A stretch of 41,779 nucleotides of DNA from Sedimenticola selenatireducens DSM 17993. GTDB lineage: Bacteria; Pseudomonadota; Gammaproteobacteria; Chromatiales; Chromatiaceae. A program made the position numbers and the translations under genes. Below are positions 4,564 to 15,759 of the stretch, piece after piece. Position 1 is the first letter of the stretch. Each line of letters starts with the position of its first letter. Under the pieces are notes generated by a model. That model saw only the letters and a list, made by a program, of their open reading frames with translations. It did no database searches and had not been told where the DNA came from. Where the stretch lies: positions 1 to 41,779 of the forward strand of contig NZ_ATZE01000030.1 in assembly GCF_000428045.1 (NCBI RefSeq), read 5' to 3'.

Positions 4564-4579
4564 GCACTGATTGCGCCCT

Positions 4580-4658
4580 TGTAGGAGCGGCGCCTCGCCG
4601 CGATGGTCGTGCAGAGGCCAGAGCCCCGGCCAATCGGCCCGGGGGCGGGCCTCCTACA
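4580..4658. repeat. REP-type palindrome, family 1
   Basis: Starts tgtaggagcggcgcctcg and ends cgggcctcctaca. It is the same element as 61-141 and 6076-6157. Together with the family 2 palindrome it fills the 237-bp gap between hoxA and the kinase gene, whose start lies 47 bp further on. Confidence 0.85.
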
Positions 4659-4705
4659 GGTGGGGCAGGAGCGGCTTCAGCTGCGAAATTCGCGAAGGGG
4701 GCGGG

Positions 4706-6064
4706 ATGGTGACCGATTCGGGCATCAAGGGTGCCGGCAGCCTGATCTCCCGGCTGGGATCGGATGAACAGATGTCGACCTCGAGCAGCGAAGAGGCATG
4801 GATCGAGGTAATCCAGAAAATGGATCTGGTCTACGCCGATCTGGTGCGCTACCAGGTGGAGCTGGAAGAGAAGAACAGCGCGCTGGAAGAGGCGCAGCGG
4901 TTTATCGAAAGCGTGCAGGCGGCAATGACCGATGTGCTGATCGTCTGCGATATTCAGGGCCGTATCCAGCAAGCCAATACCGCGCTTGAACGGATTACCG
5001 GACGCAGTGAAAAAGAGCTGTTGAACCACTCTTTCAAGGCGCTGTTCGTTGAATCGTCGCAATATCTGGTGGACGGTTTTGCCGACAAGATCCGTTCCGA
5101 GACGGTGTATGACTGCGAGGTCAACCTGATCAGCGCCGATGGTACACCGACCCCGTTGGCGATGAACTGCAGCTCCCGTTATGACCACAACGGTCGTCTG
5201 GTGGGCATGGTACTGATCGGCCGCCCGGTGGGCGAGTTGCGCCGTGCCTATGAAGAGTTGCACGCGACTCATAAGGAGTTGAAGCAGGCTCAGGAACAGC
5301 TGGTCCACTCGGAGAAAATGGCCTCCCTGGGGCGCCTGGTGGCGGGCGTGGCGCATGAACTGAACAATCCGATCAGTTTCGTGTTCGGCAACATGCATGC
5401 CTTGAAGCGTTACGGTGAGCGCATCACCCGCTATCTGGATGTGATCCATAAAGATGCCGAAGGAGAAGAGCGGGAGGCGCTGCGGAAACAGCTGAAGATC
5501 GACCATATCCTGTCGGACATTGGTTCGCTGATCGACGGCACCCTGGAGGGCGCCGAGCGGGTGAGCGATATTGTGATGGATCTGCGGCGCTTTTCCGGCA
5601 ATCAGCAAGAGGATATCCAGCCGTTCCTGCTGGCGCCGGTGGTGACCACGGCCGTCGACTGGGTGGTCAAGGCAGCCCGCAGGAAGCCGGATGTCAGCGT
5701 GGAGATTCCCGGCGATCTCCAGGCCGTCGGCATCAAGGGACTGGTGCACCAGATCCTGGTCAATCTGGTGCAGAATGCCATTGATGTAATGGAGCAGATG
5801 GAAGAGCCCCGACTGGCGATTCGCGGCTGGCAGGACTGGGACCGGGTCAGGATAGAAGTGCGGGATTTCGGGCCAGGCATTCCCAAGGCGGACCTGATGC
5901 GGGTGTTCGATCCCTTCTTTACCACCAAGGATGTGGGTAAGGGCACCGGGCTGGGGCTCTACATCAGCTATGGCCTGGCCAATGATCAGGGTGGCTCGCT
6001 GGTCGCCTCCAATCATCCGGAAGGAGGGGCCATGTTCACCCTGACCCTGAAGGCGACCGGTTGA
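4706..6064 (+). CDS. hoxJ: PAS-domain sensor histidine kinase, HoxJ/HupT type
   Basis: 452 aa, with no membrane segment, so cytoplasmic. The N-terminal part is coiled-coil (about 30-70), followed by a PAS domain (about 70-175), a second helical linker, HisKA with H217 in the VAHELNNP box, and HATPase_c with N box (NLVQNAID), G1 (DFGPGIP), F box (DPFFTTK) and G2 (GTGLGLY). In the known systems this kinase binds the H2-sensing hydrogenase HoxBC and phosphorylates HoxA/HupR when H2 is absent. ATG 4706 is chosen because gaaggggg lies just upstream and the longer frame would run back through the REP. Gene order (hoxA-hoxJ-hoxB-hoxC) supports the role. A REP and 161 bp separate it from hoxB. Confidence 0.9.
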   Translation: MVTDSGIKGAGSLISRLGSDEQMSTSSSEEAWIEVIQKMDLVYADLVRYQVELEEKNSALEEAQRFIESVQAAMTDVLIVCDIQGRIQQANTALERITGRSEKELLNHSFKALFVESSQYLVDGFADKIRSETVYDCEVNLISADGTPTPLAMNCSSRYDHNGRLVGMVLIGRPVGELRRAYEELHATHKELKQAQEQLVHSEKMASLGRLVAGVAHELNNPISFVFGNMHALKRYGERITRYLDVIHKDAEGEEREALRKQLKIDHILSDIGSLIDGTLEGAERVSDIVMDLRRFSGNQQEDIQPFLLAPVVTTAVDWVVKAARRKPDVSVEIPGDLQAVGIKGLVHQILVNLVQNAIDVMEQMEEPRLAIRGWQDWDRVRIEVRDFGPGIPKADLMRVFDPFFTTKDVGKGTGLGLYISYGLANDQGGSLVASNHPEGGAMFTLTLKATG

Positions 6065-6075
6065 ATTGGATGAGC

Positions 6076-6157
6076 TGTAGGAGCGGCGCCCCCGCCGCGA
6101 AGAGATCGGGCCGGCGGCGGTGCCGCGACCGATCGGCCCGGGGGCGGGTCTCCTGCA
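6076..6157. repeat. REP-type palindrome, family 1
   Basis: Starts tgtaggagcggcgcccccgc and ends cgggtctcctgca, lying 11 bp after the kinase stop and 68 bp before the hoxB start. Third near-full copy of the element in the hydrogen cluster. Confidence 0.85.
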
Positions 6158-6225
6158 GGGTGACCGAAATCAACTGACGGTGCAGGTATTTTGAAAACGC
6201 ACACCTTCACACAAAGGAGCAACCG

Positions 6226-7230
6226 ATGAACAGCCAATCCGGTTTCAACGTGCTCTGGCTGCAGTCCGGCGGTTGTGGCGGCTGCAGCCTGTCACTGCTG
6301 AATGCCGAGTCACCGAATCTAGTGCATACCCTGGAAGGTGCCGGCATCAATCTGTTGTGGCATCCCATGCTGAGCGAAGAGTCAGGCTCCGAGATGGTGC
6401 GGATTCTGCAGGCGGTTATCGCCGGTGAGATCAAACTCGATGCGCTCTGCATAGAGGGGGCGATCCTGCGAGGTCCGAAGGATAGCGGCCGTTTTCATAT
6501 TCTGGCCGGCACCGGTCGCCCCATGCTCGACTGGGTGCGCGATCTCGCTGCTGTTGCCGGCTATACCCTGGGGATCGGTACCGGGGCGAGCTTTGGCGGC
6601 ATCACTGCCGGCGGTGACAATCCCACCGACGCCTGTGGTCTGCAGTTTGCCGAAACCGAGCGGGGCGGCGTTCTGGGTGAAGCGTACCGTTCAGCATACG
6701 ATATGCCGGTAATCAATGTGGCCGGCTGTCCGACCCATCCCAATTGGATCACCGAGACCCTGATGCAACTGACCCTGGGAGATTTTTCCGAAAGCGATCT
6801 GGATGAGTGGCAACGCCCCAGGGGCTATGCCGATCATCTGGTGCATCATGGCTGTCCGCGCAATGAGTATTATGAATTCAAGGCGAGTGCCGAGGAGCAC
6901 TCCCAACTCGGCTGCATGATGGAACACATGGGCTGTCTCGGTACCCAGGCCCATGCCGACTGCAACACCCGGCTGTGGAATGGCGAGGGCTCCTGTCTGC
7001 GCGGTGGTTACGCCTGTATCAACTGCACCGCACCCGGCTTCCAGGAGCCGGGCCACCGTTTTCAGGAGACACCGAAAATCGCCGGTATTCCGATAGGTCT
7101 GCCGACGGATATGCCCAAGGCCTGGTTTGTGGCGCTGGCCTCACTCTCCAAGGCGGCGACACCGAAGCGGTTGAGACAGAATGCCGTGTCGGACCATATT
7201 GTTGTCCCTCCCCATAGCAAAAAGAAGTGA
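6226..7230 (+). CDS. hoxB: Regulatory (H2-sensing) NiFe hydrogenase small subunit
   Basis: 334 aa. It lacks the long twin-arginine leader of energy-converting uptake hydrogenases, as expected for the cytoplasmic sensor HoxB/HupU. Fe-S ligands are visible: C17 and C20 in GGCGGCS, the CPTHPNW segment, and a cysteine-rich C-terminal half (HGCPRNEYYEF, then CLRGGYACINC). The N-terminus starts directly in the flavodoxin-like fold. A good ribosome site (aaaggag) lies 7 bp before ATG 6226. It passes electrons from HoxC-bound H2 within the sensor and docks on the kinase. hoxC starts 4 bp after the stop. The last ~30 residues are basic and variable. Confidence 0.93.
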   Translation: MNSQSGFNVLWLQSGGCGGCSLSLLNAESPNLVHTLEGAGINLLWHPMLSEESGSEMVRILQAVIAGEIKLDALCIEGAILRGPKDSGRFHILAGTGRPMLDWVRDLAAVAGYTLGIGTGASFGGITAGGDNPTDACGLQFAETERGGVLGEAYRSAYDMPVINVAGCPTHPNWITETLMQLTLGDFSESDLDEWQRPRGYADHLVHHGCPRNEYYEFKASAEEHSQLGCMMEHMGCLGTQAHADCNTRLWNGEGSCLRGGYACINCTAPGFQEPGHRFQETPKIAGIPIGLPTDMPKAWFVALASLSKAATPKRLRQNAVSDHIVVPPHSKKK

Positions 7231-7234
7231 TAGC

Positions 7235-8686
7235 ATGAGTCGAACCATTGTTGGGCCTTTTAACCGGGTCGAGGGTGATCTGGAAGTGCAGATCGAAACT
7301 GCCGGGGGCGTCGTCAGCAACGCCTGGGTGGTCTCCCCCATGTATCGCGGTTTTGAACAGATTCTGCACGGCAAGGACCCGCGCGATGCGCTGATCTACA
7401 CGCCGCGTATCTGCGGTATCTGCTCGGTCTCCCAATCCATTGCCGCCGCCGATGCCCTGGCCCATGCCGGCGGGATCATGCGTCCGAAGAATGGTGAACT
7501 GGCGCTCAACCTGATTCACGCCTGCGAAAACCTGGCCGATCATTTCACTCACTTCTATCTTTTCTTCATGCCGGACTTCGCCCGTGAGATCTATTGCGGT
7601 GAACCCTGGTTCGATGCGGTGGCGGAGCGCTTTAAGGCGGTGAAGGGCAGGGCGGCGGCTGATGTGATGCAGGCGCGCGCCGAGTTCATGCACCTGATGG
7701 GCATCATGGCCGGCAAGTGGCCTCACACCCTGGGCATCCAGCCTGGTGGAAGCACCCGCGGCATTGAGGCGACGGAGAAGGTAAGGCTGTTATCCATCCT
7801 GAGCGGGTTCCGGCGTTTTCTGGAACAGCGCCTGTTCGGCGCGCCGCTGGAGCAGATGCTGGAGATTGACAATCAACGGCAACTGGATGATTGGCTGACG
7901 GCGGGCGATCCGGCTGAGAGTGATTTCCGTCGCCTGCTGCAGCTGTCCCGGGATCTTCAGTTGGATCAGCTGGGCAAGACCGACAACCGTTTCATGAGCT
8001 ACGGCGTCTATTCACTGGAAGGCGAACGCACATTCCGCTCCGGTGTCTGGTATCAGGGCAAGCGAAGCAAGCTTAATTCGGATTGTATTACCGAGGATAT
8101 CAGTCACAGCTGGATGGAGGGACAGGCCGAACCCCAACACCCCTATCACGGCGTCACCCTGCCCGACGCTGATGCCGATTCCGGTTACACCTGGTGCAAG
8201 GCACCGCGCCTGGATGGCCAGGTAGTCGAGGTCGGCGCACTGGCCCGCCAACTGATTGATGGTCAACCCCTGATCAATGATCTGGTTACGACCGGTGGCA
8301 GCAATGTACGCAACCGCATGATCGCACGGCTGCTGGAGATCCCCCGGGTGCTGATCGAGATGGAGCAGTGGGTACGACAGTTGAAACCGAAGGATCACTT
8401 TTGTGTAGGCAGTGAATTGAAGCGCGAGTCGGAAGGTTTCGGGCTAACCGAGGCGGCCCGCGGTAGCCTGGGTCACTGGGTGCGGATCAAAAACGGCCGT
8501 ATCCTCAACTACCAGATCATCGCCCCGACTACCTGGAACTTCTCACCGAGAGATCAAAATGGCATTGGCGGCCCACTGGAGCAGGCGCTGATCGGCGCGC
8601 CGGTGCGTGAGGGTGAAAAGGAGCCGGTAGCGGTGCAGCACATCGTGCGGTCGTTCGATCCCTGTATGGTCTGTACCGTGCATTAA
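7235..8686 (+). CDS. hoxC: Regulatory (H2-sensing) NiFe hydrogenase large subunit
   Basis: 483 aa. The Ni-Fe ligands are C60 and C63 (RICGICS) and C477 and C480 in the closing DPCMVCTVH. The protein ends at that final His, with no C-terminal peptide for a maturation protease. This is the hallmark of HoxC/HupV sensors as opposed to energy-converting hydrogenases. ATG 7235 is chosen over an upstream in-frame start because it follows the hoxB stop by 4 bp with aagaag before it. The last codons (8662-8684) are repeated at 13353-13375, so this 3' end appears to be the insertion point of the defence cassette downstream. The coding sequence itself is intact. Confidence 0.95.
   Translation: MSRTIVGPFNRVEGDLEVQIETAGGVVSNAWVVSPMYRGFEQILHGKDPRDALIYTPRICGICSVSQSIAAADALAHAGGIMRPKNGELALNLIHACENLADHFTHFYLFFMPDFAREIYCGEPWFDAVAERFKAVKGRAAADVMQARAEFMHLMGIMAGKWPHTLGIQPGGSTRGIEATEKVRLLSILSGFRRFLEQRLFGAPLEQMLEIDNQRQLDDWLTAGDPAESDFRRLLQLSRDLQLDQLGKTDNRFMSYGVYSLEGERTFRSGVWYQGKRSKLNSDCITEDISHSWMEGQAEPQHPYHGVTLPDADADSGYTWCKAPRLDGQVVEVGALARQLIDGQPLINDLVTTGGSNVRNRMIARLLEIPRVLIEMEQWVRQLKPKDHFCVGSELKRESEGFGLTEAARGSLGHWVRIKNGRILNYQIIAPTTWNFSPRDQNGIGGPLEQALIGAPVREGEKEPVAVQHIVRSFDPCMVCTVH
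8662..8684. repeat. Candidate attachment site, left copy (3' end of hoxC)
   Basis: A 23-bp direct repeat with 13353-13375, 22 of 23 identical, including the 19-bp exact core atggtctgtaccgtgcatt. It codes for the last residues CMVCTVH of HoxC. Identity stops abruptly on both sides, as at a site-specific recombination core. No integrase is seen between the copies. Confidence 0.65.
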
Positions 8687-8966
8687 CCAGCGCAAGTCAT
8701 TGATAATAAATAGTTAAATGTTGTCTAATGTACTGTGCGATTTTGGGGAAGAGTTAGTCGCTAAACCCGTACCAGTCTGGCGTATCGGGCATTAAATTCC
8801 TTGTTGTCAATTGATCTGAATAACGTCCGGTATGCAGTCCATTTTAAGTCTAGTGGTTTATAAGTACACACTATTTGCATTGTAAAACTATGCAATAATA
8901 TATAAAAATAAACTCGCGCGTGGTTTTGATAGTGCGTATAATGCATAGTATGGCTATGCTAAGTGG
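8687..8966. other. AT-rich intergenic region before the abiE operon
   Basis: 280 bp, clearly richer in A and T than hoxC. No credible gene: the only open frame (minus strand, about 60 codons) has no ribosome site and an unlikely composition. The compositional break starts right after the hoxC stop, fitting a junction with acquired DNA. The promoter and operator of the abiE genes sit at its right end. Confidence 0.6.
8937..8959 (+). promoter_or_regulatory. Probable abiE promoter -10 and operator
   Basis: A perfect tataat at 8937-8942 is followed directly by the inverted repeat gcatag (8943-8948) / ctatgc (8954-8959), 7 bp before the abiEi start. AbiEi-type antitoxins autorepress by binding inverted repeats at their promoter, so this is a plausible operator. 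No good -35 is seen. Confidence 0.45.
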
Positions 8967-9779
8967 ATGTATAGTAAACTAATGGGCGGCTTCAGCTCTA
9001 GGGCCAGGCTAGAGGACCTGCTTCTTGACGGGCTGGTCGTTGACCGTGCCTGGCTGGCGGACCGGGGCTTTGATCGTCCCCTGGTGGATTATTACCTTCG
9101 TTCCGGTGCCCTGGTGCCGGTAGCCCGCGGGGCCTACCGTCGACCCGGCCCGCCGCTTAAATGGGAGCATGTGGTCTATTCCATACAGGAGTCAGGCTAT
9201 CGGGCCCATGTGGGTGGGCGCTCCGCGTTGGAGCTTCAGGGTTTTGCTCATTACCTCTCGATGCAGGGGGTGCAACAGATTCACCTGTATAGCGCTGAGA
9301 GGCTCCCCGGTTGGATTGAGAAGCTCGAGGCCCCCTATCAGTTCACTCTGCACAGCTCCCGATTGTTTGATCGGTTGTTGCCGGAGTACCTGACCACTAA
9401 GCCCTTTGGTCATTGGGACTGGCCGCTCAGTTATGCAACCCCCGAATTTGCCCTGCTGGAACTGGCCGCCGAGGTAAAGCGTTCCTCCGATTTTGAGGTG
9501 ATGGACAAGCTGTTTGAATCGGCCACCGCACTGCGCCCCCAATTGTTGATGAAACTGCTGACTACTTGCCGCCAGATCAAGGCCAAGCGCCTGTTTCTCT
9601 GGTTTGCCGAACGGCACGGCTTTGCCTGGTTTGACCGCCTGGAGGTGGATCTCATCAACCTAGGCAGTGGGAAACGGGTTATCGAGAAGGGTGGTGCTTT
9701 AAATAACAAGTATCAGATCACGGTACCCAGACATATGGTAAGCGAGGTGGCAGATGGACCCGGGCAATCCTTTTTATAG
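8967..9779 (+). CDS. abiEi: AbiEi-family antitoxin of type IV toxin-antitoxin pair
   Basis: 270 aa. The N-terminal winged-helix part (about 10-60, with VARGAYRRPGP, the GxYRRP turn typical of AbiEi) would bind the operator. It is followed by the AbiEi C-terminal domain (AHVGGRSALELQGFAHYL, then a YATPEFALLELA segment). The antitoxin represses the operon and counters the nucleotidyltransferase toxin without known direct binding, hence type IV. Its 3' end overlaps the toxin gene by 26 bp, the usual arrangement. ATG 8967 has only a weak ribosome site, and ATG 8982 (residue 6) is an alternative. First gene of the block between the two hoxC-end repeats. Confidence 0.88.
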   Translation: MYSKLMGGFSSRARLEDLLLDGLVVDRAWLADRGFDRPLVDYYLRSGALVPVARGAYRRPGPPLKWEHVVYSIQESGYRAHVGGRSALELQGFAHYLSMQGVQQIHLYSAERLPGWIEKLEAPYQFTLHSSRLFDRLLPEYLTTKPFGHWDWPLSYATPEFALLELAAEVKRSSDFEVMDKLFESATALRPQLLMKLLTTCRQIKAKRLFLWFAERHGFAWFDRLEVDLINLGSGKRVIEKGGALNNKYQITVPRHMVSEVADGPGQSFL

Positions 9780-10668
9780 GCAGGTGAGCCTGCTGGTTCA
9801 GCTCTTGCCCATCGTCGGGCGGCAGGAGTGTTTCGCATTGAAAGGCGGTACCGCCATTAATCTCTTTGTGCGGGACCTGCCACGTCTGTCGGTGGATATT
9901 GACCTTGCCTATCTGCCAACCGCGGATCGATATCAGGCGCTAATGGAGATCGATACGGCCTTACAGGCCATAGCCAATGAGGTGAGGCAGCGTCTGTCTG
10001 GCTGCCAGGTAACCGCACAGCCCAATCGCGCGACCGGAACCCTACTCAAGCTGAATGTTGCTCTCCCCGATGCCCAGGTGAAGATTGAGGTGACACCGGT
10101 TCTGCGCGGGGCAGTCTATGAACCGGAGGTGTGTTTGGTACGGCCTGTTGTCGAGAAACAGTTCGGGTTTGCCGAGGTTCAACTGGTCAGCTTTAACGAT
10201 CTCTATGCCGGTAAGCTCTGTGCGACATTGGATCGCCAGCATCCACGTGATCTGTATGACACGCGGCTGCTACTGGAGAACGAGGGGCTCAGTCGCGACC
10301 TTATGCGAGCCTTTCTCGTCTATCTAATAGGTCATAATCGACCCATGGCAGAGCTGTTGGCTCCCAGGCCCAAGCCACTGGCGGAAAGCTATGCTGCCGA
10401 GTTTAGTGGCATGGCATTTGACGAGGTCGACGTTGAGACGCTTGATGCGACGCTGCCCCGATTGGTAGAAGCGCTGCACGCCAATCTTACTGATGATGAT
10501 CGAGCGTTTCTGCTCTCCTTTAAGGCGGGTAAGCCCAATTGGGCGCATTTGGGCATACCGCATATCGAGCAGCTCCCCTCGGTGCGGTGGAAATTGTTGA
10601 ATCTTGCCAAGATGGCGAGGGACAAGAGAATTAAGGCCGTAGGCAATCTAGAGGCCGTATTAAAGTGA
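9754..10668 (+). CDS. abiEii: AbiEii nucleotidyltransferase toxin
   Basis: 304 aa. It has the nucleotidyltransferase signature GGTAIN (31-36) followed by D48 and D50 in SVDIDLAY, the metal-binding pair. A conserved LYAGKLCATLDRQHPRDLYD segment follows at about residues 150-169, typical of the AbiEii/AbiGii toxin family. Family members transfer nucleotides (GTP-dependent for AbiEii, CTP onto tRNA for relatives such as MenT) and arrest growth, often during phage infection. All visible catalytic residues are present, so the toxin is probably active. It overlaps abiEi by 26 bp. A 139-bp gap separates it from the next gene. Confidence 0.9.
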   Translation: MDPGNPFYRQVSLLVQLLPIVGRQECFALKGGTAINLFVRDLPRLSVDIDLAYLPTADRYQALMEIDTALQAIANEVRQRLSGCQVTAQPNRATGTLLKLNVALPDAQVKIEVTPVLRGAVYEPEVCLVRPVVEKQFGFAEVQLVSFNDLYAGKLCATLDRQHPRDLYDTRLLLENEGLSRDLMRAFLVYLIGHNRPMAELLAPRPKPLAESYAAEFSGMAFDEVDVETLDATLPRLVEALHANLTDDDRAFLLSFKAGKPNWAHLGIPHIEQLPSVRWKLLNLAKMARDKRIKAVGNLEAVLK

Positions 10669-10807
10669 TGTACGCGCGGTCAAGTATCCGACGGTGGCAT
10701 GTCCCCGTGGATTCAGTTGGCAGCGCAGGTCGAATAGTCATGGTTCAAAGTCTGGTATGCCGTTGGACCTGAACAAGAGCATGCAATCAGTATTCAGCGA
10801 GTTTTAG

Positions 10808-13153
10808 ATGTCGGTATATCCAAGCGGACGGTTTGAAGCTGAGCTGCGCTCGATTGAGCAGCGACTTGTTGAACTTAGCAAGGAGAAGTCCGACCTGCTG
10901 GATCGTAAAGCCGTTTTGCAACAGAGGCTGGCTCTCGGGGCTAACCAGGCTGGTACGCCACTTACGACAAAAGAGAAAATGAGTCTGTTTCGGGAACTCT
11001 TCCAGGGGCGTAGTGACATATTTGCTCTTCGCTGGGAGAACAAAGCCGGGCGAAGTGGATATACCGTGGCCTGCCACAACGAGTGGCAGGCCGGCCTGTG
11101 CCGTAAGCCCAAGATTAAATGTGGAGAGTGTCCCCATCGGTCGTTCAAGGCGCTGGACGCCAAGGCGATCTACGATCATCTGGTTGGAAAGCAAACCGTA
11201 GGTCTCTATTCGCTACTTCAGGACAGCAGCTGCCACCTATTGGCGGCAGATTTCGACAAGGCCGATTGGCAGTCAGCCGCAAAGGCCTATGCGCAGGCCT
11301 GTGTAAGCCTGCAAATCCCCTATGCGATTGAGCGTTCTCGCTCCGGAAACGGGGCCCATGTTTGGATCTTCTTTTCGGAGCCGGTGCCGGCGAAGGAGGC
11401 CAGGCGCCTCGGATTTCTACTGCTGGATCGCGCAATGGAGATCCATCCGGGACTCTCTTTTGAATCCTATGATCGCCTGTTCCCCAATCAGGACAGGATT
11501 CCGGAGGGTGGATTTGGCAACCTGATAGCGCTGCCTCTTCAACATAGTCCGCGGCAGAGTGGTAATAGCGTCTTTGTTGATATGGATCTGGTTCCCTATC
11601 AAGATCAGTGGGGGTTCCTCCAGCAAATCGGTTTGGTGATGCCCAATGCACTAACGGAACTGCTGAAGGTCGCGCAGGATCGTGCTGGTGAGGCGACCTT
11701 TGCGCTAAAGCCTTGGGAAGAGGGTCTCCCAGTGAAACCGAAGAAGCTGGAGAATTGCCCCGCTTCTTTGACCGTGGTGTTGGCCAACCAACTCTACGTG
11801 CCCATCGACAAGTTGCCTCCGACGTTGATCGCGCGACTGAAGCGATTGGCCAGCTTCTCCAATCCGGTCTTTTTCAAGACTCAGGCGCTGAGGTTTTCCA
11901 CGCAGGGGATACCCAGATTTATCAGTTGCGCCCGAATCGAGCAGGATTATCTGTCCATTCCAAGAGGTTGCCTGGATGGTGCCAGTGCGTTGCTGAAGGA
12001 GCAGGGGGTGGAGCTACAAATAGACGATAAGCGTAATCCGGGGATACCCCTGAAGAAGTTTCGGTTTCAGGGGGAGCTTCGAAAAGAACAGCGTAAGGCG
12101 GTGGCCGCCATGACAAGGCATGACGTGGGCGTACTTCATGCCCCAACGGCCTTTGGTAAGACGGTCACTGCCATCGGGATTATCGCCAAACGCAAGACCA
12201 ATACCCTGATCTTGACCCATAGCCGCCAACTGCTGGACCAGTGGCGCGAGCGTCTCGGGGCATTCGCGGAAGGAGCCAAGATCGGTGTGATTGGTGGAGG
12301 AAGGAAAAAACCGTCCGGCGAAATCGATGTGGCAACCTATCAAAGTCTGATTGATCGCAAGGACAACACGGTCCGTGAGTGGGTGCATGATTACGGCCAG
12401 ATTATTGTCGACGAGTGCCATCATGTTTCCGCGCCTCGGTTTGAGATGGTGCTCAATGCCATACATGCCAAATACGTACTGGGACTGACCGCAACACCTG
12501 AGCGCCAAGACGGTCATCAGCCAATTATTTTCATGGCGGCAGGACCGGTTCGTCACAAAGTCAGAGATGACCGACAGGTACAATTCGAACAGCAGCTCAT
12601 AGTGCGTTGGCGGGATCATCTGCCACCTCATGAACTGGTCATGGATAATGGCCGACCACATATTGCCGATGTATATCGCTGGTTGTCGGAGGATGAAGTG
12701 CGTAATCAAACGATTATTGATGACGTTTCCAAGGCGGTAGAAGCGGGACGGAATCCGCTGGTGCTGACTGAACGCCGGGAGCATGCCAAACGGTTAAGCG
12801 AGCGCATAGCAGGGTTAGGGTACCGTGTCGCAACCCTGCGGGGCGCCATGAGTGCCAAGGAGCGTAGCGCCGTGCTGGATAGCCTGGATGAGGTTCAAGT
12901 ATTGATTGCGACTGGAAAGTATATCGGTGAGGGGTTTGATTTGCCGAGGCTGGACACGCTCTTTCTGGCGCTGCCGATCTCCTGGAAAGGTTCTCTGGCG
13001 CAGTATGTCGGTCGGATTCACCGCAATGCCGAAGGCAAAGAGCGGGTATTGGTATATGATTATGTGGAGTCAGGTTTGCCGACGTTGAAACGTATGTTTC
13101 AGCGGCGTGAGAAGGGATATAAGGCGCTGGGCTATGTGGAGGTTTCCGGTTGA
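10808..13153 (+). CDS. Primase-helicase protein of the TOTE conflict-system class
   Basis: 781 aa. An N-terminal coiled coil (about 8-45) is followed by a cysteine cluster (C89, C98, C105, C108), probably zinc-binding. Next comes an archaeo-eukaryotic-primase-like domain with D148 and D150 in AADFDKADW and H184 in SGNGAHVW, the DxD and sxH catalytic set. A superfamily 2 helicase follows: Walker A APTAFGKT (445-452), DECH box (535-538), GLTATPERQDG, and a C-terminal helicase domain ending in QYVGRIHRN. This primase-helicase fusion is known from bioinformatic work as the TOTE type, predicted to act against invading DNA or RNA; its biochemistry is not established. It stands alone as the last gene before the second hoxC-end repeat. 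Confidence 0.85.
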   Translation: MSVYPSGRFEAELRSIEQRLVELSKEKSDLLDRKAVLQQRLALGANQAGTPLTTKEKMSLFRELFQGRSDIFALRWENKAGRSGYTVACHNEWQAGLCRKPKIKCGECPHRSFKALDAKAIYDHLVGKQTVGLYSLLQDSSCHLLAADFDKADWQSAAKAYAQACVSLQIPYAIERSRSGNGAHVWIFFSEPVPAKEARRLGFLLLDRAMEIHPGLSFESYDRLFPNQDRIPEGGFGNLIALPLQHSPRQSGNSVFVDMDLVPYQDQWGFLQQIGLVMPNALTELLKVAQDRAGEATFALKPWEEGLPVKPKKLENCPASLTVVLANQLYVPIDKLPPTLIARLKRLASFSNPVFFKTQALRFSTQGIPRFISCARIEQDYLSIPRGCLDGASALLKEQGVELQIDDKRNPGIPLKKFRFQGELRKEQRKAVAAMTRHDVGVLHAPTAFGKTVTAIGIIAKRKTNTLILTHSRQLLDQWRERLGAFAEGAKIGVIGGGRKKPSGEIDVATYQSLIDRKDNTVREWVHDYGQIIVDECHHVSAPRFEMVLNAIHAKYVLGLTATPERQDGHQPIIFMAAGPVRHKVRDDRQVQFEQQLIVRWRDHLPPHELVMDNGRPHIADVYRWLSEDEVRNQTIIDDVSKAVEAGRNPLVLTERREHAKRLSERIAGLGYRVATLRGAMSAKERSAVLDSLDEVQVLIATGKYIGEGFDLPRLDTLFLALPISWKGSLAQYVGRIHRNAEGKERVLVYDYVESGLPTLKRMFQRREKGYKALGYVEVSG

Positions 13154-13352
13154 TAGTGGGCCTCGTGAGCAGGTCATCTCATCCAGTATTACCGACTAAG
13201 TTATTGCTTCAGGATGAGCCAGTTCTTCCCAAAATGGTTCTGTAAGATGTTGATTTAAAGAGCCCGTAAACACCAATAATGGGCGGGCGTTAGAGTGGTG
13301 TTTGGCGAGCTATGTGACTGTATAAAAAGGCCAGTGAGCGATTTCGGAATTT

Positions 13353-13375
13353 CTGCATGGTCTGTACCGTGCATT
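13353..13375. repeat. Candidate attachment site, right copy (duplicated hoxC 3' end)
   Basis: 22 of 23 bases match 8662-8684. In the same reading frame it encodes CMVCTVH followed by a stop (TGA here, TAA in hoxC). There is no clear homology to hoxC further left, so it is not the tail of a second complete gene. This is the pattern left when an element integrates in a gene's 3' end and duplicates the core. The sequence to its right would then be the ancestral hoxC downstream flank. Confidence 0.65.
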
Positions 13376-13502
13376 GACGCTAACCCACTAGCTTTAGAGT
13401 CCCCGAAAGGGGATCTGTAAGCCCCTGGCCGTTAGGCGACGGATGGCGGGATATGCGAGTTCCGGGATAATGGATGCCTTACGAAATCTTGAACGAAGGG
13501 CC

Positions 13503-13523
13503 CCTTCTCCCTCAGGGAGAAGG
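13503..13523. terminator. Strong hairpin, possible terminator or dispersed repeat
   Basis: Arms ccttctccc and gggagaagg are a perfect 9-bp stem with loop tca, followed by acaggatgagggg. This motif is familiar as a dispersed intergenic repeat in proteobacteria. No T tract follows, so a terminator role is uncertain. Confidence 0.5.
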
Positions 13524-13698
13524 ACAGGATGAGGGGATTTGAATAATCAAAGCGTTAACTCACCTTTAGCGCCCCATGACCCCAGTCCTGAGCCATATGT
13601 AGCCAACCGACCAGCTTTAACCGGTGGTTGCTGGGTACATTCCCTAAAATACTAGTCACAATGGCATTATATCGCCTATTTTGCGTAGTGTGATTGGC

Positions 13699-13953
13699 AT
13701 GACAGAGCATGAGGCAGGTGTACTTGAGCGCCTCGGTGAGGGGCCAAGGTCCCAGCGCAAGCGTCGGGGAGACAGCCAGCTGGATGCGGCCGCCCGGCGT
13801 GGCGTCAGCCGGGAAACCTTTCGCCAAATGGAGCGGGGCAATCCAGGGACAGGTGTGGGCTGCTGGGTTCGGGCCATCCGCCTGTACGGAGACCTGGTGC
13901 AACTCGAAGCACTCTTTAGCGGCTCACTTTTTTTACCAGTTGCCGGGGGATAG
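13699..13953 (+). CDS. HipB-like XRE helix-turn-helix protein
   Basis: 84 aa from ATG 13699 (an upstream TTG at 13681 is possible). The region QLDAAARRGVSRETFRQMERG (about 33-53) is an XRE-type helix-turn-helix, followed by the LYGDLVQLEALF helix that in HipB-like antitoxins closes the domain. It is followed after 3 bp by a shortened hipA-like gene, so it is read as the antitoxin-repressor of a HipBA module. Residues after 75 (GSLFLPVAGG) look unconserved. Whether it is still expressed is unknown. Confidence 0.6.
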   Translation: MTEHEAGVLERLGEGPRSQRKRRGDSQLDAAARRGVSRETFRQMERGNPGTGVGCWVRAIRLYGDLVQLEALFSGSLFLPVAGG

Positions 13954-13956
13954 CGC

Positions 13957-14274
13957 ATGATACATCTCCGGGTCTGGCTGCGCCCTCCGGTGGGCGAACC
14001 CATTCTGGCAGGGGAGATCGTGGTGGCTGATCCCGATACGGCCAACAATCGGGAGCACGTTCTGCATTTCGGTACTGTGGGCAATACACCAACGCTGAAT
14101 TCACTTGATGTTCTTGGCCGTCAGTTTGGCATTGCAGCGGGTGCGGTGAAAAATATCATGAACGAGGTGAGGGAGGCCATAGAGCAGTTTCCACCCATCG
14201 GCGATGAATACGGCATCCCGGCTAAAGAGATAGATATCCTGATAGCGAGAATGAGGCTGCCGGGTCCTGGATAA
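13957..14274 (+). pseudogene. Internally deleted HipA-like toxin (N- and C-terminal ends fused)
   Basis: 105 aa where HipA proteins have about 400-440. The first ~27 residues (LRVWLRPP then LAGEIVV) look like the HipA N-terminal strand pair. From about residue 40 onward (TLNSLDVLGRQFGI, then VREAIEQFPP and YGIPAKEID) it looks like the HipA C-terminal helical end. The kinase core with ATP-binding and catalytic residues is absent. The frame stays open across the join, so a small protein could still be made. ATG 13957 is 3 bp after the HTH gene. The call rests on visual recognition of short segments; a novel small partner protein is the alternative. Confidence 0.55.
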
Positions 14275-14583
14275 ACCTGGCTGGATGCTGGTTATAACTT
14301 TTACTGTAACAACCTGATCAATTCATGCGCACGTGAGGTAGCTCACCGGCATCCTACCTCTCCGGCCACTCCTTTATCAGCGATTTTCCATGGGCACATC
14401 GGTATCTGGTAGGGCGGATAAGCCGGCAGGCGCATCCACCAAACCTGCTGGTATTTACGCTACGCCATGGGTATGCTAGACGGACATAAATCAAGACATT
14501 GTTAAATGGTAAAAATATCTAACAAATTGATATTAAACAAATAAAATAAACTTTACGGGTGGACATTTTTAAGGACTTTTTGC
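14275..14583. other. Intergenic stretch with a partial REP and AT-rich promoter area
   Basis: 309 bp without a gene. 14409-14440 (gtagggcggataagccggca onward) is the left half of the family 2 palindrome seen complete at 4494-4563. The last 90 bp are very A/T-rich (runs such as aaacaaataaaataaac) and probably hold the fic promoter. No clear -35/-10 pair stands out. Confidence 0.55.
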
Positions 14584-15759
14584 GTGGCTTGGGATAATCA
14601 AATCCAGCTAAGGATCGAAACCGACCGGTTTGGTCCCTTCACCTTTCAGCTCGGCGTGGACATGCCTTGCCTGGAAAGTCTGCTGATGCGCGTCGACGAT
14701 GCCCACAAGCGCTTTAAAACCTCGCCTTTATCCCAGGTAGCAAGCCGCCTGGAGAAGGAGGTGGTGGTCAGCAGCATCTATGACACCAACTCTATTGAAG
14801 GTGGCACCCTTTCTGTCGAGGAGACGGAGCAGGCCCTGGATCTCTCACCGGTCCAGGTGAAGGATATAGAACAACGCCGTGCCATCAATCTTAAAAATGC
14901 TTATGAACTGGCTCAACGAGTGGCCGCGCACCCCGGCTGGCGGCTCGATACAGCGTTTATCAAACAGATCCATATCGCCGTTACCGATCAGCTCCCCCAC
15001 GAATACAACCGGCCGGGGCTGCTCAGAGATAATCCCAAGGGGATAACTACACGGGTGGGCAGCCAGGAACACGGCGGGACATACAAGCCGCCACAGGATG
15101 GAAAAGATGTGGCGCGGCTGCTCAATGGTCTGATTGAATGGCACCAGCAATTGGTGAAGCACGGGGTCCCCGTACTGGTCCGCGCACCGCTGGTGCATCT
15201 CTATTACGAACTGATACACCCCTTCTGGGACGGGAATGGCCGTGTAGGCCGGGTGCTGGAAGCGACCTTGCTTCAGGCGGAGGGGTACAAATATGCCCCC
15301 TTTGCCCAGGCCCGCTACTACCTGGAGTATATCCACGCCTACTTCACTCTGTTCAACACGACCCGCAAAAAGGCGGAGAAAAACAGCGAGGTACCGAATA
15401 CCGATTTTGTCGCCTTTTTCCTGGAAGGGATGCTGGCCAGCATCAATGCACTGCATGATCGGGTTAACGTCCTGATCGCCCAGATCCTGTTTGAAAACGA
15501 AGTGAAACGCCTGCATGACGAAAAAGCGATCAACGCCAGACAATATGCCATCGTTAGCCAGACAATGGCGACGGGTAAGCCGGTATCGCTGTCGGACCTG
15601 AGGAAAGCGCCCTGGTATCAAGCGCTTTACATCAAACTGACAGATAAAACCAGGCAGCGTGATTTAAAAGGATTGCGGGAGTTAGGTATCGTGAGGCAGG
15701 ATGATACGAATAGTCTTTGGGTTGGATATGTGAATACGGCCACGGCCAGTGATGAATAG
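14584..15759 (+). CDS. Fic-domain protein (adenylyltransferase family), self-inhibited type
   Basis: 391 aa. The Fic active motif HPFWDGNGR (212-220) is complete (HPFxDGNGRxxR), so AMP transfer or the reverse is expected. The inhibitory helix motif TNSIEG (68-73, [S/T]xxxE[G/N]) lies before the Fic core, as in class II Fic proteins, where its Glu blocks productive ATP binding. The C-terminal ~100 residues (KPVSLSDLRKAPWYQALY, then RDLKGLRELGI) look like a winged helix that could bind DNA. GTG 14584 is preceded by aagga 9 bp upstream. No FicA-like antitoxin gene is adjacent, in keeping with inhibition inside the protein. Confidence 0.88.
   Translation: MAWDNQIQLRIETDRFGPFTFQLGVDMPCLESLLMRVDDAHKRFKTSPLSQVASRLEKEVVVSSIYDTNSIEGGTLSVEETEQALDLSPVQVKDIEQRRAINLKNAYELAQRVAAHPGWRLDTAFIKQIHIAVTDQLPHEYNRPGLLRDNPKGITTRVGSQEHGGTYKPPQDGKDVARLLNGLIEWHQQLVKHGVPVLVRAPLVHLYYELIHPFWDGNGRVGRVLEATLLQAEGYKYAPFAQARYYLEYIHAYFTLFNTTRKKAEKNSEVPNTDFVAFFLEGMLASINALHDRVNVLIAQILFENEVKRLHDEKAINARQYAIVSQTMATGKPVSLSDLRKAPWYQALYIKLTDKTRQRDLKGLRELGIVRQDDTNSLWVGYVNTATASDE

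Follow-up and report, generated by a model that had tools for sequence, protein, structure and literature searches.

Two copies of the hoxC 3′ end flank AbiE and TOTE genes in Sedimenticola selenatireducens DSM 17993 and may mark an attachment site of temperate phages

The hoxC locus and its cassette

A block of defence-type genes lying between two copies of the 3′ end of hoxC, a gene for a [NiFe]-hydrogenase large subunit, was analyzed in a stretch of 41,779 nt of Sedimenticola selenatireducens DSM 17993 (contig NZ_ATZE01000030.1), the whole of which is called the window. The two hoxC ends and the 4.7-kb cassette enclosed by them were composed as follows.

7181–8686, + strand: open frame of a hoxC-type [NiFe]-hydrogenase large subunit (PF00374, 3.9e-79), ending in DPCMVCTVH and a stop
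8662–8687, + strand: hoxC 3′ end, serving as the coding end and stop of the gene; putative attL core (the same 24-mer is a displaced end or candidate attP in other genomes and one phage)
8943–8959, no strand: GCATAG-TATGG-CTATGC inverted repeat before AbiEi (found by eye), candidate AbiEi operator
8967–9779, + strand: AbiEi antitoxin/regulator (PF17194, PF11459; PADLOC AbiEi, 6.3e-82)
9754–10668, + strand: AbiEii nucleotidyltransferase toxin, overlapping AbiEi (PF08843, 2.1e-40; PADLOC AbiEii, 6.2e-117)
10808–13153, + strand: TOTE-class archaeo-eukaryotic primase and superfamily 2 helicase (PF22548, 3.7e-96; ResIII, Helicase_C)
13353–13378, + strand: displaced hoxC 3′ end with TGA stop; putative attR core (from the repeat and the genome scan)

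A preliminary description of this DNA, made from the letters alone, had reported that the last 23 bp of hoxC recur once, with 22 of 23 identical and a stop codon behind them. Comparison of 8662–8684 with 13353–13375 gave the same 22 matches in 23 positions; upon extension to 8662–8687 and 13353–13378, 24 of 26 nt (92%) were identical, and the identity between the two ends was limited to this 26-nt core. Both copies were read as CMVCTVH, as had been claimed, followed by TAA in hoxC and by TGA at the second copy. With up to 3 mismatches allowed, a degenerate 24-mer core was found at 2 places in the window and at none in 100 shuffles; in the whole 4.59-Mb genome it occurred at the same 2 places only, and the reversed pattern, used as a control, occurred nowhere. 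The repeat is thus unique in this genome. By eye, the codons for CMVCTVH form an imperfect dyad. The copy at 13353 was also considered as the tail of a second large-subunit gene, and this was ruled out since the identity begins at the core.

Between the copies only AbiEi, AbiEii and a TOTE-class primase-helicase had been described, and Pfam and PADLOC agreed; the other open reading frames (ORFs) listed inside the cassette overlap these three genes, which were the ones covered by the domain searches. The adjacent AbiEi and AbiEii genes match the content of the AbiE type IV toxin-antitoxin family, and the primase domain and helicase in one protein match that of the TOTE conflict systems; the cargo would presumably protect the cell against phages. 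The absence of an integrase from the block, also in the preliminary description, was borne out: neither integrase nor transfer genes were found in the cassette by ORFs and Pfam, and none of the PF00589 matches of the genome lies on this contig. A transposon or insertion sequence was rejected as the carrier, with no transposase among the three proteins and none of 11 listed inverted pairs joining the cassette ends. G+C content per kb was 0.54–0.57 in the cassette (9000–12999) versus 0.60–0.61 within hoxBC (6000–7999).

Homologues of the TOTE protein (E ≤ 1e-80) were detected in 23 of 190 genomes, own included. The AbiE and TOTE genes are linked in the window but not in relatives, as none of the 13 TOTE loci fetched from them (flanks of at most 1.5 kb, some shorter) matched the AbiE proteins of the window. 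A conserved AbiE-TOTE unit is therefore unsupported, and the cargo appears to be assembled locally or to vary from case to case.

The hoxC core in other genomes and in phages

Displaced hoxC ends were sought in a genome collection with one genome per species (84,980 species, contigs of at least 3 kb) by a core pattern that, to avoid matches to genuine hoxC genes, excluded the initial base of the Asp codon. Ten stretches were obtained, and six of them proved to be displaced hoxC ends, in Zoogloea, Dechloromonas, two Accumulibacter, a Rhodospirillales metagenome-assembled genome (MAG), and Marinobacterium litorale. All six genomes also possess hoxC, 54–58% identical to that of the window, and each carries two cores with at most 1 mismatch. 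Recurrence of the displaced end had been named beforehand as a test, and it was thus found in six other genomes, in addition to one and probably a second genome of the genus (see below). The remaining four matches were dropped: L067, L070 and L075 are from Bacteroidota, and their frame, putatively ribosomal protein L6-like, reads on past the core; L072 is from a genome with no hoxC match.

The Zoogloea element and the Dechloromonas insert were the only ones among the six seen end to end on one contig. In Zoogloea the hoxC end and the displaced end are 38 kb apart, with terminase, portal, tape-measure and tail genes between them, and an integrase gene beside hoxC ends 53 nt from the first base of the core. 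Tyrosine integrase genes pointing at hoxC and ending shortly after its stop were likewise observed in Marinobacterium and both Accumulibacter genomes, although the gene in A. regalis (Accumulibacter) is cut by the contig end. In Marinobacterium, the integrase and an Exc-type excisionase gene follow hoxC directly, and the displaced end lies on another contig beside phage portal, head and tape-measure genes. PHROGs matches were obtained for 8 of the 10 proteins examined in the phage regions of three genomes, and the other 2 had none. The Dechloromonas insert is 1.6 kb long and encodes a 403-aa AAA protein (27.2 bits, cut-off 27) and a likely integrase remnant, GHKSA.MT, with a weak match (tblastn E 0.24–0.36). 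The right arm in the Rhodospirillales MAG resembles the end of an Accumulibacter integrase over 39 nt (79%, E 2.5e-5), after which transposase-like ORFs were seen by eye. The Zoogloea prophage also has, near its integrase (L098, 2246–3676), a reverse transcriptase gene (PF00078) followed by genes for 190- and 219-aa proteins with similar ends; this region could be a diversity-generating retroelement.

IMG/VR contigs with the core numbered 2 when the Pro codon was included and 4 when it was not. In IMGVR_UViG_3300017698_000053, the core lies 90 nt from genes for a lambda-type integrase (Arm-DNA-bind_1 and Phage_integrase) and an excisionase; no hoxC match was found in this record, and the core is therefore taken as attP. 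Both the core and an integrase of this family are also present, at separate places, in viral records G120 and G122. In IMGVR_UViG_3300044712_000205, the core (L065, 905–931) lies between phage genes and a GIY-YIG-like ORF (by eye), and a related integrase is encoded about 21 kb away. A match in the fourth contig (L076) was dropped, being inside a lysin-like ORF of a record with no PF00589 match, in which a serine-recombinase-like ORF was seen by eye.

Four integrases were aligned, and three of them were 33–56% identical to the first. Related integrases were encoded at 80 viral loci, 22 of which have 250 nt or more of sequence past the gene and could be judged, the other 58 ending too soon. Only one of the 22, IMGVR_UViG_3300017698_000053, had the core within 600 nt of the integrase, so hoxC specificity of the whole family was rejected. 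Weaker integrase matches were present in 4 of 369 genomes of a class-wide sample; three had no core in the 1.5 kb beyond the gene, and the fourth has 204 nt only. On the integrase tree, on which labels of other targets rest on the cluster members with flanking sequence, the hoxC label requires two changes of target. Viral contigs L131, L133, L142 and L166 encode related integrases and carry TTCCCCAAAA-like arm words, with no hoxC core in 420 nt beyond the gene; their target genes may differ while the arm system is shared. Shared arm words without the core and the two target changes point to a wider arm-binding family, which seems to include hoxC-specific branches.

In the class-wide sample itself the core (at most 1 mismatch) was found in 24 of the 369 genomes, and none of the 23 besides that of the window has a short displaced hoxC end. 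Two of them have two copies of the core, which were set aside as a large duplication (G325) and an apparently redundant contig pair (G143).

Of 20 relatives picked without regard to the repeat, 2 carry a second core. Within the genus, the hoxC end is repeated serially on a 5.0-kb contig of G007 (positions 359, 2015 and about 4619), and integrase-less inserts of 1.6 and 2.6 kb separate the copies. This cargo consists of DUF2189, DUF4389 and MarR genes and a gene for a 400-aa protein with no Pfam match, and no PADLOC family was assigned to the 2 proteins tested. The third, degraded end (L051, 4538–4641) is homologous over 104 nt, longer than the att core, and could represent the gene's original end, pushed there by an earlier event. 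G002, in which the second core (1 mismatch) lies on another contig, is probably a further recurrence. In G005 (L050, 1–2822), a type IV restriction-like PLD-helicase (PADLOC mREase_IV, 5.6e-105) and a methyltransferase directly follow hoxC, and the contig ends before any second hoxC end. The site is used repeatedly but rarely, and is seldom occupied outside the genus. The idea of an integration hot spot accordingly fits the genus and is too strong elsewhere.

Chromosomal genes of the flank beyond the displaced end were found after hoxC in two relatives of the genus.

13640–15759, + strand: chromosomal flank with an 83-aa ORF, a 105-aa ORF and Fic (14584–15759); follows hoxC in G001, and Fic follows hoxC in G006

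In G001, hoxC is followed by XRE-like, 105-aa (split) and Fic genes, and in G006 by Fic, the same order as after position 13378 of the window. A short sequence at 13501–13540 of the window is related to three sequences found beyond hoxC in G008; it has the look of an interspersed repeat and may in part explain why some of this flank is unaligned.

Attachment arms

Sites of integration host factor (IHF) were identified by its consensus, and arm sites are named as in lambda. In six phage and prophage elements an IHF-type site begins 111–112 nt to the left of the displaced core or attP core (4 perfect, 2 with one mismatch) and is preceded by an arm word. Except in the Rhodospirillales element, the same word or a close variant recurs 2–3 times to the right of the core. 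The window contains the following sites.

8693–8705, − strand: perfect IHF-consensus site (WATCAANNNNTTR), 7 nt after the hoxC stop; the Marinobacterium prophage has one at 4 nt
8740–8751, − strand: lone inverted copy of TTCCCCAAAAT, the word that forms the arm site in the Marinobacterium prophage; weak, possibly a chance occurrence
13226–13235, + strand: P1-type arm site TTCCCAAAAT, just before the IHF site and in register with TTCCCCAAAA of the Marinobacterium prophage (sequence and matrix)
13243–13255, − strand: perfect IHF-consensus site beginning 111 nt before the displaced core (first of 83,484 by matrix)

A matrix built from the six phage elements, with the window excluded, placed 13226–13263 first among the 83,484 positions of the window on both strands, at 22.7 bits; the runners-up scored 13.5 bits (same cassette end) and 9.3 bits. 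The training elements scored 14.1–29.9 bits when each was left out in turn. Scores of other small inserts were lower, being 14.6 in Dechloromonas (first of 11,928), 13.7 in G002 contig C36 (first of 19,648, runner-up 12.4), and 11.6 in G007 (third of 9,984). Nine occupied sites, among them that of the window, together contain 10 perfect IHF sites (2 from the window), while 300 base shuffles averaged 0.19 and never exceeded 2. At four seemingly empty sites (G001, G006, G003 and G008), no IHF-type site was found to the right of the core, even with one mismatch allowed.

Origin of the cassette

These comparisons support the view that temperate phages with lambda-type tyrosine integrases use the hoxC 3′ end for attachment. 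As the defence block lies between two copies of a phage docking sequence, most likely it was brought in by such a phage or relied on phage machinery. We consider it probable, at roughly 0.7, that a phage-type element was integrated at the hoxC end and then lost its integrase, so that a 4.7-kb att-flanked island remains. The hoxC 3′ end would act as attB for a family of phage-encoded lambda-type tyrosine integrases; recombination within the core would give hoxC an element-derived stop, TAA, and push the original end, with TGA, to 13353–13378. Deletion next to attL would then remove the integrase, and AbiEi-AbiEii and the TOTE primase-helicase would be left between attL and attR with the phage arms partly preserved. 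The hoxC genes of 5 of the 8 relatives in the genus stop with TGA, as does the displaced end; this fits a new element-derived end and a displaced old one, but a single codon gives thin support. The cassette has the core at both ends and the IHF-type and P1 arm sites about 111 nt left of the displaced core, as in the hoxC phages, with no integrase of its own beside the core. Integration at the hoxC end with duplication of the core, as suggested in the preliminary description, is thus upheld by the phage and prophage integrases beside the same core and by the matching arms in the window.

Several observations weigh against this explanation. The phage elements have direct repeats in the right arm that were not found after hoxC in the window, where one inverted word only was seen, and the second left-arm IHF-like site, at 43 nt in most phage elements, is absent. 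The matrix stretch was picked after the arm of the window had been seen, and eight control loci peak at 2.3–18.6 bits; the window is higher, but with controls reaching 18.6 bits the matrix is not highly specific. No integrase remnant was found in the ends of the cassette, so its loss by deletion is only inferred. That the hoxC-site integrase family (E ≤ 1e-10) was detected in none of the nine genomes of the genus, own included, counts for the explanation, but the absence is weak for two of them because they are 65% and 78% complete. Alignment of G001 to the window begins at 13640, which is 263 nt past the displaced core and about 290 nt past the hoxC stop of G001, and that of G006 begins still later, the earlier stretches being unaligned. 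The empty sites expected in relatives are therefore indicated by gene order in G001 and G006, and the junction is not seen to the base.

Movement in trans and loss of the integrase had both been offered as explanations for the missing integrase gene, and the latter fits better. In the former, the block would be a non-autonomous defence cassette that is excised and re-integrated by the integrase of a foreign hoxC phage, against which it defends the cell. Small integrase-less inserts between hoxC ends do recur, in the window and twice in G007; IHF and P1 arm sites are retained in register in the window, G007 retains phage-like TTGGCAA/TTGGCAAAAC words in its right-arm zone, and the restriction-like genes after hoxC in G005 would suit such a cassette, though the contig ends there. 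We regard such mobility as rather unlikely, and loss of the integrase is favored, because the window has no recognizable right-arm integrase sites. In addition, the same cassette was not found in a second genome and the TOTE loci of relatives have no AbiE match, so that no movement is documented; the cargo of G007 was not recognized as defence, and the likely integrase remnant in the Dechloromonas insert suggests that decay probably makes such inserts. Decay of an integrated phage-type element is favored also since the right arm is not intact and decay is suggested in both Dechloromonas and the Rhodospirillales MAG. An extension of the idea of movement in trans, in which the hoxC end is a contested docking site where defence cassettes keep working att sites, are moved by integrases of incoming hoxC phages and protect the locus required by these phages, is slightly more doubtful still.

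A plain duplication of the hoxC end, by homologous recombination with DNA of a relative or mediated by an insertion sequence and with no integration scar, seems improbable. It has a parallel in G325, in which two hoxC 3′ portions (176 and 303 aligned codons) are 13.4 kb apart, with transposase-like and reverse-transcriptase-like ORFs (by eye) between them; perfect IHF sites are lacking from the 200 nt searched to each side. The third end of G007 also exceeds the att core in length. Against a duplication, the identity in the window is confined to the 26-nt core, which is the one that phages use, and the arm sites keep their register. That a chance repeat lies beside unrelated defence genes deserves practically no credence; this reading, already at odds with the shuffles, is refuted by the recurrence of the core in other genomes and phages.

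With attL and attR cores, arms and no integrase, the block that we ascribe to a decayed phage-type element resembles a cis-mobilizable element (CIME) or a prophage remnant. CIMEs have been described as elements that have lost integration and transfer genes and kept attL and attR (PMC5704250). The cassette is alike in being flanked by attL and attR, in lacking an integrase and in restoring the target gene, and the serial gene-end copies in G007 resemble accretion; it differs in that the parent looks like a temperate phage and not an integrative and conjugative or integrative and mobilizable element, the target is a hydrogenase gene, and cis-mobilization is putative. Protein-coding genes serve many islands as sites, and in many cases the islands restore the genes entered (PMC12884075). 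The dusA gene is a conserved protein-coding gene used as attB by prophages and islands in many genomes (PMC4482086). It is comparable to hoxC in being a conserved protein gene, but dusA integrases use the 5′ end, whereas here the site is the hoxC 3′ end, which encodes a C-terminal metal-ligand motif.

Literature searches, which were not exhaustive, yielded no report of hoxC as an attachment site. The findings describe a candidate phage integration site in a hydrogenase gene that presumably serves hydrogen sensing; its integrase family can be traced, an attP and the anatomy of the att arms are available, and defence genes sit at the site without an integrase. A site encoding a strongly conserved metal-ligand motif could let hoxC phages cross wide taxonomic distances, and the hoxC end might offer an insertion point in hydrogen-oxidizing bacteria. 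In heterocyst-forming cyanobacteria, the hupL element interrupts a hydrogenase gene and is excised during development by the tyrosine recombinase XisC. In both cases an element with a tyrosine recombinase occupies the gene of a [NiFe]-hydrogenase large subunit; in the present one hoxC stays intact and the complete elements are phages.

The genes upstream of hoxC in the window were identified as follows.

4571–6064: PAS histidine kinase (PAS/HisKA)
6226–7230: hoxB (PF01058/PF14720)

Together with hoxC, they form a probable H2-sensor operon, the hydrogenase being of the putative sensor class.

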